9,694 nt of DNA from Bordetella parapertussis (GTDB lineage Bacteria > Pseudomonadota > Gammaproteobacteria > Burkholderiales > SG8-41), in the NCBI GenBank assembly GCA_945863085.1, contig CAMBCD010000080.1:1-9694 (forward strand), read 5' to 3'. Shown in pieces: positions 422 through 4,331 of this stretch. Made by a program: the position numbers and the translations under genes. The notes under the pieces were generated by a model. That model had not been told where the DNA came from. It ran no database searches and saw nothing but the letters and a program-made list of their open reading frames with translations. Positions within the stretch are counted from its first letter, which is position 1. Every line of letters starts with the position of its first letter.

Positions 422-1810
422 ATGGACAACAACATGAACAACAGACGAAATTTCCTCCGTGCTTCCGGCGCGGCGCTGCTTGGTGCTGCCGCGGTCAGCC
501 GCGCCGCACAGGGCGCCGTGCCCGAAGCGCCGATGCAGACCACGCCCGACATGCAGCCGCCACTCTCTCCACCCAACGGCCGCCCCTACAACCCGGTCGC
601 CACTTTGAACGGCTGGACACTGCCCTGGCGCATGAACAATGGCTGGAAGGAATTCCACCTTGTTGCCGAACCAGTGCGTCGTCAGATCGCGCCCGGCATG
701 ACCGCCCACCTCTGGGGTTACAACGGTCAATCACCGGGGCCGACCATAGAATGTGTCGAAGGCGACAAGCTAAGAATCTTCGTCACCAACAAGCTGCCCG
801 AACACACGACCATCCACTGGCACGGCATCCTGCTGCCCAATGGCATGGACGGTGTCGGCGGACTGACGCAGCCGCAGATCCCGGTCGGTAAAACCTTCGT
901 TTATGAATTCGAGATGAAAAAGTCCGGCACTTTCATGTATCACCCGCATGCCGACGAAATGGTGCAGATGGCGATGGGCATGATGGGCCTCTTCATCGTG
1001 CATCCGAAAAATCCAAACTTCATGAAGGTCGATCGCGACTTCGTGTTTCTGCTGAACGCCTTCGACATCAGCCCCGGCGCGGCGACCCCGCGCGTGAACA
1101 CCATGCTCGACTTCAACCTGTGGTGCTGGAATTCACGCGTGTTCCCGGCGATTGATCCCTTTGTGGTGCGCAAAAATGACCGCGTACGCATCCGTTTCGG
1201 CAACCTGACGATGACCAACCACCCGGTGCACATGCACGGTTACGATTTCGAAGTGACCTGCACCGACGGCGGCTGGGTGCCGAAGTCCGCACGCTGGCCG
1301 GAAGTATCCGTGGACGTTGCCGTCGGCCAGATGCGTGCTTTCGAATTCACCGCCAGCGAAGCCGGTGACTGGGCGATCCATTGCCACAAGTCGCATCACA
1401 CCATGAACGCGATGGGCCACGGTGTGCCGACGATGATCGGCGTCGACCATCGCGGTGTTGCCGAAAAAATCCTGCGCCTGGTGCCCGACTACATGGTCAT
1501 GGGTGAACGCGGCATGGCCGACATGGGCGAGATGGAAATGCCGCTGCCCGACAACACGCTGCCGATGATGACCGGCCGCGGCCCCTTCGGCCCGCTGGAA
1601 ATGGGCGGCATGTTCAGCGTGGTCAAGGTGCGCGACGGGCTCGCGCGCAACGATTACAAGGATCCGGGCTGGTTCAAACACCCGCCGGGTACGGTGGCGC
1701 GCGAATGGACCGGCGCCGCGCCGGAAACCCCGCGAGCCGCGTCATCGCCAGCCGTTGCCGGTGAACGCGAAGTCCGCGCGCGCAAGCCCACGACCCAGCA
1801 CAATCATTAA
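422..1810 (+). CDS. Tat-exported two-domain multicopper oxidase (copper oxidase)
   Basis: A 462-residue protein. A GGAGG at 407-411 with a 10-nt spacer supports this start over the in-frame ATG at codon 5. Residues 7-14 (NRRNFLRA) followed by an Ala-rich stretch form a twin-arginine signal, so a folded copper enzyme is sent to the periplasm. All four copper motifs are present: HWHG (H132, H134), HPH (H174, H176), HPVHMHG (H267, H270, H272) and HCHKSHH with a distal Met (H320, C321, H322, H326, M331). By family rules H267, C321, H326 and M331 build the type 1 site and the other eight His the trinuclear site. Only about 190 residues separate the first and last motif, as in small two-domain laccases and far less than in three-domain CueO/CopA enzymes. 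Residues 358-397 hold ten Met, a likely Cu(I)-binding segment. The probable role is periplasmic oxidation of Cu(I) to less toxic Cu(II); the exact substrate is inferred. Confidence 0.93.
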   Translation: MDNNMNNRRNFLRASGAALLGAAAVSRAAQGAVPEAPMQTTPDMQPPLSPPNGRPYNPVATLNGWTLPWRMNNGWKEFHLVAEPVRRQIAPGMTAHLWGYNGQSPGPTIECVEGDKLRIFVTNKLPEHTTIHWHGILLPNGMDGVGGLTQPQIPVGKTFVYEFEMKKSGTFMYHPHADEMVQMAMGMMGLFIVHPKNPNFMKVDRDFVFLLNAFDISPGAATPRVNTMLDFNLWCWNSRVFPAIDPFVVRKNDRVRIRFGNLTMTNHPVHMHGYDFEVTCTDGGWVPKSARWPEVSVDVAVGQMRAFEFTASEAGDWAIHCHKSHHTMNAMGHGVPTMIGVDHRGVAEKILRLVPDYMVMGERGMADMGEMEMPLPDNTLPMMTGRGPFGPLEMGGMFSVVKVRDGLARNDYKDPGWFKHPPGTVAREWTGAAPETPRAASSPAVAGEREVRARKPTTQHNH

Positions 1811-1849: not shown

Positions 1850-2353
1850 ATGATGCGATTACCGCCATTAATACTGCTGGCATTCACAGCGACACTGGCC
1901 ACCGGCCCCGTGGCCGCCCATAGCGACAGCCATGCCAAAAAATCCGCGGCTCCGTCCACAGCGGGCATGGAAGAAAAATCCTTCGGCAAGGCCGGCGACC
2001 CGAAAAAAACCGTGCGCACCATCCATGTCGACATGAGCGACCGGATGCGTTTCACGCCGGCTGCGCTGACCGTGAAACAGGGTGAGACGGTGAAATTCAT
2101 CGTCAAAAATTCCGGCAAGACCATGCACGAATTCGTACTGGGCACCATGGCCGAATTAAAAACTCACGCAGAGTTGATGAAAAAACATCCGGGCATGGAG
2201 CACGACGAGCCGTACATGGCCCACGTCGCGCCCGGCAAGACGGAAACCATCGCCTGGCAGTTCACCAAGTCCGGCGAATTCCATTTCGGCTGCCTGCTGC
2301 CGGGCCATTGCGAAGCCGGCATGGTCGGCAACATCAACGTCACCGCGAGGTAG
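1850..2353 (+). CDS. Periplasmic cupredoxin (plastocyanin/azurin-like copper protein)
   Basis: A 167-residue protein with GGAG at 1838-1841, 8 nt before the ATG. It sits 39 nt after the oxidase stop in a notably AT-rich spacer. Residues 1-23 are a Sec-type signal peptide ending ...GPVAAHS. The mature N-terminus is His/Lys-rich and flexible. A single cupredoxin domain covers about 55-167: the pattern FTPAALTVKQGETVKFIVKN, then MHEF, then GCLLPGHCEAGM. By family knowledge H93, C148, H153 and M158 are the four type 1 copper ligands. C154, immediately after the second His, is an extra Cys that is not a standard ligand. An insertion at 100-125 (HAELMKKHPGMEHDEPYM) is rich in His and Met and may add copper binding. 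The likely role is a soluble electron or copper carrier that serves the oxidase upstream. Domain and ligands are clear; the partner is inferred. Confidence 0.92.
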   Translation: MMRLPPLILLAFTATLATGPVAAHSDSHAKKSAAPSTAGMEEKSFGKAGDPKKTVRTIHVDMSDRMRFTPAALTVKQGETVKFIVKNSGKTMHEFVLGTMAELKTHAELMKKHPGMEHDEPYMAHVAPGKTETIAWQFTKSGEFHFGCLLPGHCEAGMVGNINVTAR

Positions 2354-2357
2354 CACC

Positions 2358-2798
2358 ATGATCAAACGAAGACTCTTTATCGCTGCACTGCTTGTCACCG
2401 CGGTTTCAGCAGCGGCACAGGCCGCAGAACCGCCGCTGGTCACCGTTTACCTCAACCCGACCTGAGGCTGCTGCGGCGCGTGGATGGAACATCTGCGCGC
2501 CAACGGCTTCCGTGTGAAGCCGGTTGCAGTCGAAGACACCAGTATCGAACGCAAACGCCGCGGCATACCCGATGCACTGGGCGGTTGCCATACTGCCACG
2601 GTGAACGGTTATGCCATTGAAGGCCATGTGCCGGCGCGTGACATCAAACGCCTGCTGGCGGAGAAACCGGTTGCGGCAGGTCTTGCGGTGCCGGGCATGC
2701 CGCAGGGCTCGCCCGGCATGGAAAGCCCGAGCCCGCAACGTTATGAGGTGCTGCTGGTGGACAAGAGCGGCCGTCATGCCGTTTACACCCGTTACTGA
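2358..2798 (+). CDS. DUF411/CopG-like copper protein, probable selenoprotein (in-frame TGA = Sec36)
   Basis: Read through one in-frame TGA at 2463-2465, this frame gives 146 residues from ATG 2358 to TGA 2796-2798. The start has GAGG at 2347-2350 (spacer 7), overlaps the end of the cupredoxin gene, and gives a signal peptide ending ...SAAAQAA near residue 23. The frame then reads VTVYLNPT-U-GCCGAWMEHL, followed by hallmark DUF411 segments: RRGIPDALGGCHTA, GYAIEGHVPA, LAVPGMPQGSPGME. DUF411 proteins have a thioredoxin-like fold with a CGCC-type motif. A family member, CopG, has been described as binding a Cys-bridged tetranuclear copper cluster through that motif plus the Cys of the xCHTA segment (here C80). 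The TGA falls exactly on the first Cys of CGCC, giving UGCC. A SECIS-like hairpin follows at once. The intact 110 codons beyond the TGA and the copper-operon setting argue for a working gene. A TGC-to-TGA nonsense mutation or a base-call error remains possible. An annotation program would call only a truncated product from ATG 2484, which lacks the signal peptide and the motif. Confidence 0.8.
2463..2510 (+). promoter_or_regulatory. Candidate bacterial SECIS stem-loop for UGA recoding
   Basis: The mRNA just after the in-frame UGA can fold into a long hairpin. The upper stem is 12 bp (2475-2486 with 2490-2501: GGCGCGTGGATG against CATCTGCGCGCC, ten Watson-Crick and two G-U pairs). It is capped by the triloop GAA at 2487-2489. 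A lower stem of 7 bp (2464-2470 with 2504-2510, two G-U pairs) includes the GA of the UGA itself. A 4/2 internal loop separates the stems. The UGA at the base, a G in the first loop position, and 21 nt between UGA and loop fit published bacterial SECIS rules (loop of 3-14 nt, G in the first two loop positions, spacing of about 16-37 nt). In E. coli fdhF such a hairpin recruits SelB with Sec-tRNA. The bulged U of fdhF is not obvious here, so SelB recognition is inferred. Confidence 0.72.
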
Positions 2799-2827: not shown

Positions 2828-3166
2828 ATGAAACGCGCTCTGCTCATCGCAACCATCTTCGCCTGTGCACCGGCATATGCCCAGCAAACCGCAGTCGACC
2901 ACGCCGCCCACCACCCCGCCCCTGTCAAAGCGCAGGCTCAAGGCGCACTGGTCGATGGCGAGGTGCGCAAAGTCGACCAGGAAACCAAAAAAATCACCCT
3001 GCGTCACGGCCCCATTCCCAACCTCGACATGCCGGCCATGAGTATGGTGTTCCAGGTCAAGGACCCCGCAATGCTGGAACAGGTAAAAGCCGGCGACCGG
3101 GTGCTGTTTGAAGCCGAAAAAACAGGCGGCGTCTATGTCGTTACCCATATCCGGAAAAAGGATTAG
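2828..3166 (+). CDS. CusF-like periplasmic copper-binding protein
   Basis: A 112-residue protein with an AGGA at 2816-2819, 8 nt before the ATG. It lies 29 nt after the DUF411 stop and is the last gene of the copper operon. Residues 1-19 are a signal peptide (cleavage near ...APAYA|QQ). A His-rich linker (HAAHH, 25-29) precedes one small beta-barrel domain of the CusF/Cu_bind type at about 40-112: GEVRKVDQETKKITLRH, then PIPNLDMPAMSMVFQV. In E. coli CusF, Cu(I)/Ag(I) is held by one His and two Met and capped by a Trp. Here H60, M71 and M73 match the ligands, and the Trp position is M68, a substitution common in this subfamily. The likely role is a copper metallochaperone that hands Cu(I) to an efflux pump, which fits the TolC gene at the operon start. 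Confidence 0.92.
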   Translation: MKRALLIATIFACAPAYAQQTAVDHAAHHPAPVKAQAQGALVDGEVRKVDQETKKITLRHGPIPNLDMPAMSMVFQVKDPAMLEQVKAGDRVLFEAEKTGGVYVVTHIRKKD

Positions 3167-3335: not shown

Positions 3336-4054
3336 GTGAATAAAAACAAAACAGCGGGACGCTGGTCGCCAACCAGCATCGGGGTCAACCTCGCGATCGT
3401 CGTGTTCAATGCGGCGCTGATCGGCGTGGTGTGGATTGCGTTTTTCGAAATCGTTACTGTCGACCGCAAGGAAACCGTAAATGCCGCGGTCGACAGAAAC
3501 AACAACCTCGCCATCGCGTTCGAACAGTACACCGTACGCACCATCGAAAGCGCCGACGCAGTCCTGCAGTACATGATCCGCGAATATGCGCGCAGCGGCG
3601 GGAAAATCGATGAAAACCGGTCATTGCCCGCCTCACCGAGAAGCTGGTCGTCCCCATTTCGCGACGCATCAACAAACCCGACGGCAGTTTTGGCGGCGTG
3701 GTCGTCATATTGATCGAACACGCACGCTTCACCGATGTATTGAGCAACGCCAAAATGCGCCAGTTCGACATCATCTCGCTGGTCGGACTCGACGGCATCA
3801 CCCGCGCGCGGCTGAGAGGTACGACACCCACCGCAGGCGAAGACATCAGCAAAAGCCCGCTGTTTGCGGAACAGGCGCAGCGCCCCGACGGCGACTATGC
3901 GGCCAGGGGCCAGATCGATGACATCAAAAGAATCTTCAGTTACCGGAGCCTGCCGCAATACCGGTTGATCGCCACTGTCGGCGCCTCGGAGGAGGATGTG
4001 CTGGCCGGTTTTTACCAAAGGCAGCGCCGATATTTCTGGGTAGCCGTGACCTGA
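3336..4054 (+). pseudogene. Broken membrane sensor gene (PDC sensor, diguanylate cyclase/kinase type)
   Basis: A GTG start at 3336 opens a frame with a short cytoplasmic tail, one membrane helix at about residues 15-38 (GVNLAIVVFNAALIGVVWIA) and the start of a periplasmic PDC-type sensor domain (YTVRTIESADAVLQYMIREY). After GGKID, near 3610, the frame becomes nonsense (...RSLPASPRSWSS). The expected continuation is found in another frame from 3614: KPVIARLTEKLVVPISRRI, then NKPDGSFGGVVVILIEHARF, ending QRRYFWVAVT and TGA at 4052-4054. From memory of this family, about 60-70 residues are missing between the halves, so this is an internal deletion with a frameshift and not a single-base error. 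The second membrane helix and the output domain (usually GGDEF) are also absent, lost where the IS remnant begins. The gene is almost certainly dead; the original output domain cannot be known from here. Confidence 0.8.
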
Positions 4055-4067
4055 CCGGCTTATTCGG

Positions 4068-4331
4068 TGCCGGGTTGAATGTTGTAGTGTTCAACTTGGA
4101 AGAAGGAGTCGATAGATGGCGAACAAGAAGTATAGCCCGGAGCAAGCGGTCGCAAAATTGCGGCAAATCGACGTGCTGGTGGGCGAAGGCAAATCAATCC
4201 ACCAGGCCTCACAGTTCGCTGGGCTACCGACCGCCTGCACCTGCGGCGATCAGCCCAAAACTACCAGTCTTGGAGCAGGCGGTTGAGATGCAGTAAAGTG
4301 TTTCAATGAACTTGGCACAAAAAACCGGGCA
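4068..4331 (+). mobile_element. IS3-family insertion sequence remnant with internal deletion
   Basis: An ATG at 4116 with AAGGAG at 4103-4108 starts MANKKYSPEQAVAKLRQIDV, followed by LVGEGKSIHQ, the start of an IS3-type OrfA. By about 4195-4208 the sequence has jumped to the end of OrfB, readable in another frame as RPHSSLGYRPPAPAAI followed by a stop at 4297-4299. Everything between (most of orfA and nearly all of the DDE transposase, roughly 1 kb) is gone. The hybrid orfA frame runs to TGA 4284-4286 (56 codons). Imperfect inverted repeats beginning TGCCGGGTT (4068) and, on the other strand, TGCCCGGTT (4331) match at 11 of 16 positions and end in TG...CA as is usual for IS3 elements. No clear target duplication is seen, so the exact ends are uncertain. 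It cannot move by itself. Confidence 0.75.

Follow-up and report, generated by a model that had tools for sequence, protein, structure and literature searches.

The CopG/DUF411 gene analyzed here carries an in-frame UGA codon at the first cysteine position of its CxCC motif. We propose, with a probability of roughly 0.85, that this codon is decoded as selenocysteine (Sec36) in a protein with a periplasmic role in copper handling. The predicted product, CopG-Sec, would be a selenocysteine (Sec) variant of CopG and a new selenoprotein family. Sec insertion is strongly supported by the comparison of sequences. The preliminary description of this DNA had read the gene as a selenoprotein, and that reading gained support from the recurrence of TGA among relatives, from the Sec machinery found in those relatives and from a constrained, covarying hairpin downstream of the codon. 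In the proposed mechanism, SelB and tRNA-Sec would decode the UGA as Sec, with the hairpin just 3' of the codon mediating the decoding. The protein would be exported to the periplasm, where Sec36, within a thioredoxin-like fold, would take the place of a cysteine that ligates copper.

A CopG-like gene with an in-frame UGA codon

The window, which is the whole stretch of 9,694 nucleotides that was analyzed, contains a CopG gene of 146 codons that begins with ATG at 2358 and ends with TGA at 2796-2798 (Table 1). The preliminary description had placed the only in-frame stop at the first Cys of the CxCC motif, and the sequence confirmed that the sole internal stop is the TGA at codon 36, where the residues read ...VYLNPT-U-GCC-GAWMEHL. 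It had also noted family-like sequence beyond the UGA, and we found a match to PF04214 (DUF411) downstream of the TGA with an E value of 9.5e-27 and a score of 92.9 bits, where the cut-off is 27. None of the NCBIfam models matched the CopG-Sec protein at E values up to 0.01. The further claim that standard pipelines would miss the N-terminal third held in part: gene callers do report the short reading frame of 104 aa, but the loss amounts to 42 of the 146 residues, slightly under one third.

Table 1. Features of the window, with positions counted from its first letter.
Feature	Positions	Strand	Evidence
Multicopper oxidase, upstream neighbour, beside the CopG gene in many relatives	422-1810	+	
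Cupredoxin (CopI-like), its end 4 bases 5' of the start of CopG	1850-2353	+	
CopG/DUF411 gene, TGA read through as Sec, 146 residues, predicted exported	2358-2798	+	Sequence, Pfam, PDB alignment, AlphaFold2 model, fold match
Putative signal peptide, twin-arginine-like start (MIKRRLF)	2358-2426	+	By eye and pattern count
TGA codon 36, predicted Sec, residue 1 of CxCC (UGCC here)	2463-2465	+	Codon comparison across relatives
Predicted bacterial SECIS hairpin, 12 bp; arms 2475-2486 and 2490-2501, loop 2487-2489 (GAA)	2475-2501	+	
104-aa reading frame starting at Met43, 3' of the UGA; database copies of relatives cut likewise	2484-2798	+	
CusF-like copper-binding protein, downstream neighbour	2828-3166	+	

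The CxCC motif is present with predicted Sec in place of its first Cys. Across 18 aligned rows, Cys38 and Cys39 were invariant, as were U/C36, C77, H78, M114 and M121. A twin-arginine-like start was found by pattern, not by a dedicated signal-peptide program, in 28 of 47 UGA genes versus 5 of 65 Cys genes, and this excess may be a lineage effect only.

We then compared CopG-Sec with known structures. The only PDB sequence match was CopG of Pseudomonas aeruginosa (6wis/6wje; 5.1e-30), in which the first Cys of the CGCC lies opposite U36. An AlphaFold2 model with Cys standing in for Sec had a mean pLDDT of 89.9, and its top structural matches were again 6wje and 6wis, with TM scores by target length of 0.91-0.94 and rmsd values of 1.3-1.5. 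The model places CopG-Sec in the thioredoxin-like CopG fold. The P. aeruginosa protein (PF04214) has the same sequence family, fold, CxCC position and thioredoxin-like domain, but it has Cys where the window gene has UGA. CopG-like genes are likewise linked to copper genes (PMC7558416).

Near the CopG gene, a multicopper oxidase, a cupredoxin and a CusF-like gene were all present at 10 of the 13 UGA loci of L001-L014. The order was that of the window at 7 of these 10 loci, and CusF preceded CopG at the other 3. At locus L013 only the cupredoxin was found, and all three copper genes were absent from L011 and from the short L014. Further downstream in the window, a sensor-like gene at 3336-4054 appeared by eye to be frame-shifted across two overlapping frames, and the stretch at 4116-4296, also judged by eye, presumably holds remnants of an IS3-type transposase.

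In the published account of CopG-like proteins, a tetranuclear copper cluster is bound by CxCC and two methionines, and the role proposed for CopG is to oxidize Cu(I) and hand the copper on to further cuproproteins (PMC7558416). We infer that Sec36 is both a copper ligand and a redox residue. Together with Cys38, Cys39 and the C-terminal methionines it would bind and redox-cycle copper, and CopG-Sec would act together with the products of its copper-gene neighbours (multicopper oxidase, cupredoxin, CusF-like protein). Compared with a thiolate, the selenolate would turn over faster in redox reactions or bind Cu(I) more tightly. The most specific form of the proposal is a natural selenolate-ligated copper cluster, with Sec36 for Cys in the tetranuclear site of a periplasmic protein that was gained or lost multiple times over three phyla, is exported by a twin-arginine-type route in the Burkholderiales lineage and acts beside a multicopper oxidase; we regard its chances as even.

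On the other hand, the protein may be a selenoprotein in which the role of Sec36 is that of a redox residue, of the thiol/selenol oxidoreductase or the peroxide type, with no copper ligation. The modelled thioredoxin-like fold is consistent with such a role, as is the published view that most uncharacterized selenoproteins likely have redox functions (PMC13188914); the copper cluster of CopG at this very motif (PMC7558416) and the copper genes on both sides argue against it, and we consider it possible but rather doubtful. A further comparison is offered by CutG of Rhodobacter capsulatus, a CopG homologue of the cutFOG operon that is encoded beside a multicopper oxidase gene, as here. CutG differs in being a Cys form whose own CxCC is dispensable for oxidase activity: when its CxCC cysteines were replaced, the multicopper-oxidase activity was not significantly changed (PMC8456105), which weakens the case for a large CxCC role.

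CopG-Sec allows a direct test of selenium as a biological copper ligand, with natural Cys and Sec versions to compare, among them a close Cys gene that carries the hairpin (L004, below). If the proposal is correct, copper handling would join the possible reasons for these bacteria to retain the Sec machinery. CopG-Sec also adds a predicted copper-linked selenoprotein family, in lineages for which every nearest named record is metagenome-assembled.

The preliminary description knew of no DUF411 selenoprotein, and this agrees with our search of the open-licence literature, in which no report of a DUF411/CopG selenoprotein was found among matches judged by title. Among the 119 prokaryotic families and subfamilies of selenoproteins in a table published in 2026, as available from PMC13188914, none is listed under DUF411, PF04214 or CopG, and a term search of the accessible text of PMC13188914, PMC12013277, PMC9312934 and PMC2398784 gave no mention of DUF411 or CopG. 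The nearest entries come from the same survey (PMC13188914). The SO_0444 family Cu/Zn efflux transporter (NF033936; Table 1 of that paper) is also a copper-related predicted selenoprotein, but it is an efflux transporter with UxC, unlike the thioredoxin-like CopG-Sec with UGCC. The CopZ-like (2Fe-2S)-binding selenoproteins (cd10141), likewise predicted, are related to copper chaperones and differ in domain and in motifs (GxUC, CU). Thioredoxin-like selenoproteins (UxC, UGC, UxxC) share the thioredoxin-like domain and a Sec motif with CopG-Sec, but in the table they have no DUF411 domain and no copper role.

The hairpin downstream of the UGA codon

A 12-bp hairpin starts 9 bases 3' of the UGA. 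Measured against protein-preserving shuffles, its stability gave a mean z of -2.34 in 47 Sec genes versus -0.38 in 65 Cys genes, and a hairpin at p ≤ 0.05 was found in 36 of the 47 Sec genes versus 10 of the 65 Cys genes. The 11 Sec genes that did not rise above synonymous shuffles include L074 and a second Burkholderiales lineage (L156-L159, L161-L163).

Within the main Burkholderiales lineage, pairing was further analyzed on 28 distinct sequences. The stem positions paired in 87.8% of cells, versus 83.1% after shuffling, and slid registers paired at 21 to 52%. The covariation score was 0.122 versus 0.050 for the shuffled sequences, and none of 500 shuffles reached 0.122. The number of further pair types was not above the shuffles in these sequences, as 103 of 500 shuffles reached the count. 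We also found a coupling between columns 22 and 30 that is silent on one side, column 30 being the third base of a His/Tyr codon. An A in column 22 went with a T in column 30 in 25 of 30 distinct UGA sequences versus 13 of 37 Cys sequences (p = 8e-5); the main lineage alone gave 20 of 22 (p = 3e-5), and the other UGA genes alone gave 5 of 8 (p = 0.24).

The median contiguous stem was 10 bp in 29 Sec sequences of the main Burkholderiales lineage, and 6 bp in 28 other Sec sequences (the second Burkholderiales lineage, Acidobacteriota and Gemmatimonadota); for 143 Cys sequences it was 2 bp. Conservation of the residues W-[VIM]-x-[HY]-L accounts for part of the upper stem. The three groups could not be told apart by a guanine within the first two positions of the loop, which occurred in 20 of 29, 21 of 28 and 98 of 143 sequences, respectively. 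Together, these comparisons point to a SECIS-like hairpin in the window and in the main Burkholderiales lineage, and more weakly in the second lineage and in L074. A search of the window with Rfam at gathering thresholds produced no match, which says little because the SECIS elements of bacteria vary widely (PMC12013277).

One close relative of the window gene, L004 (1414-1854 of genome G004), is placed within the UGA clade by the tree, reads TGC at the site and has a hairpin z of -3.16. It was the only Cys gene with all 12 pairs when 77 of the 80 scan loci were read, and a 12-bp stem occurred in 1 of the 143 Cys sequences. L004 looks like a recent Sec-to-Cys change, and SECIS-like structures have been described before in Cys genes of Sec origin (PMC1794560). 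The G004 genome has kept tRNA-Sec; SelA, SelB and SelD were not found in this draft assembly. Perhaps the lineage has been caught losing Sec, or else the draft is incomplete.

A strongly constrained hairpin and a UGA as early as codon 36, ahead of the Pfam-matched part, would also be in keeping with regulated read-through, in which only a signal-peptide fragment would be produced without copper or selenium and Sec insertion would be mainly a switch. However, Cys homologues without the UGA are commoner in the class and order samples, and we saw no sign in the analyzed data tying the codon to regulation. We consider such a switch improbable, and it would be compatible with decoding of the UGA as Sec, not exclusive of it.

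Recurrence of the codon and selection around it

Among 215 distinct fetched genes, the codon at the site was TGA in 68 (the window included), TGC in 122 and TGT in 24, and TAA, TAG and TGG were found in none; since the genes were fetched for their likeness to the window, 68 of 215 is not a natural frequency. In the one remaining row, L219, the pattern had shifted the alignment by one residue; this row, too, has CGCC. In a genome scan that kept 80 loci of 174 confirmed relatives, 14 loci had TGA and 66 had TGC or TGT. TGA was present in 13 of the nearest 14 loci, L004 with its TGC being the exception.

In the Burkholderiales family of G001, a DUF411 match was found in 46 of 74 genomes, and codon-checked TGA in 43 of these 46. 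The three exceptions were G004 (TGC), G063 (Cys, with CGCG) and G019, which is broken with no site seen. The order sample gave a match in 117 of 349 genomes, with TGA in 7, each within the family of G001, and the class sample gave a match in 100 of 369 genomes, with TGA in G001 only. In the Acidobacteriota, the phylum of L074 (Vicinamibacterales), 42 of 396 genomes had a match and 15 had TGA at the site. In the Gemmatimonadota, the phylum of L059 (Gemmatimonadales), 199 of 249 genomes had a match, and 6 genomes among the matches listed had TGA, all codon-checked. A plasmid search returned 3451 records, all below 60% identity.

A tree of the Sec and Cys forms, built by a quick method from 155 rows and 126 columns, which are few for that many rows, requires 9 Sec/Cys changes, at least 4 of them forced by starred branches, with gain and loss indistinguishable. 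On this tree a Cys gene, L232, is nested among the Acidobacteriota UGA genes. Genome G059 has two DUF411 copies (L141, L160), one with UGA and one with TGC, about 10 kb apart on one contig. L190 reads UPCC instead of UGCC at the site, and L163, a second UGA copy in G041, has a frame that is seemingly disrupted downstream of the site.

Selection was estimated from 14 close UGA genes (91 pairs). The signal region had a dN/dS ratio of 0.50, the 12 codons immediately 5' of the UGA had one of 0.067 and codons +14 to +100 had one of 0.189, so that purifying selection acts on both sides of the UGA. The value of 0.067 indicates that the stretch 5' of the UGA behaves as translated protein. The dS value fell to 0.097 in codons +1 to +13, versus 1.218 before the UGA and 0.654 further downstream. 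Because synonymous change collapses at +1 to +13, the RNA itself appears to be constrained there.

These data bear on the view that translation simply ends at the UGA, or that this codon is a sequencing error, the gene being a pseudogene or encoding a short protein of 104 aa from Met43. Such a short form does stand in databases, where the proteins of relatives are often cut at the UGA: among the matches listed, 46 of 120 begin at that Met. However, the search for homologues with TGA at the same codon, which the preliminary description had suggested, returned 67 other genes, and none had TAA or TAG there. The same recurrence makes it unlikely that the base is a misread TGC, which the preliminary description had given as a way for its reading to fail. 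The low dN/dS ahead of the codon also stands against a stop. An ATG within 10 codons past the site was present in only 22 of the 68 UGA genes, and any start codon in 34 of 68, and the short form would be without the signal peptide, the first strand and the CxCC site. We consider an ordinary stop or an error very improbable.

Selenocysteine machinery in the relatives

tRNA-Sec was found in all 14 close relatives (G001-G014; 13 UGA, 1 Cys) at 75.9 bits. With strands matched, it is one distinct sequence, and the anticodon was UCA in 5 of 5 checked. SelB was above the cut-off in 12 of the 14 close relatives and SelA was present in 12. Among genomes with the UGA gene, SelB was present in 41 of 43 from the Burkholderiales family, 15 of 15 Acidobacteriota and 6 of 6 Gemmatimonadota, or 62 of 64 in total. 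In G014, a possibly incomplete draft with the UGA gene, SelD and tRNA-Sec, neither SelA nor SelB was detected. SelB was also not detected in G042, which has the UGA gene; its selB may be off the contig, because selA lies only 310 bases from the contig end.

When codon and SelB were tabulated, SelB was present in 54 of 56 UGA genomes versus 26 of 50 Cys genomes (Fisher 5e-8, with kinship not corrected); this table omits L143 and L229, which the pattern missed, loci with unsearched genomes, and the Gemmatimonadota from the phylum search. Among tree pairs differing in the codon, 2.0 of 4 on average agreed with SelB and 0.1 disagreed, and this phylogeny-corrected test had too few pairs for significance. 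In the Gemmatimonadota, SelB does not discriminate, being present in 6 of 6 UGA genomes and in 26 of the first 30 Cys genomes among the 199 matches. Since the UGA is shared across three phyla, nearly always with SelB in the same genome, insertion of selenium, as Sec, into the would-be copper site is likely.

Reassignment of TGA to Trp in these organisms, for which a JGI protein (P0004) with W at the site and a continuation into CusF sequence might speak, is hardly credible when 41 of the 68 UGA genes terminate in TGA, other relatives have a Cys codon at the aligned position and TGG occurs in 0 of 215 genes, and tRNA-Sec, SelA, SelB and SelD are each present in 12 to 14 of the 14 close relatives. 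In the P0004 record, TGA was apparently rendered as Trp twice, once at the site and once at the stop. As general explanations we rejected an internal start, a pseudogene, a sequencing error and Trp reassignment.

SelD was found in 13 of the 14 close relatives, each with an in-frame TGA of its own (G001-G003, G005-G014). In the three loci that were read (L112-L114), this TGA lies within GGGUGCK.
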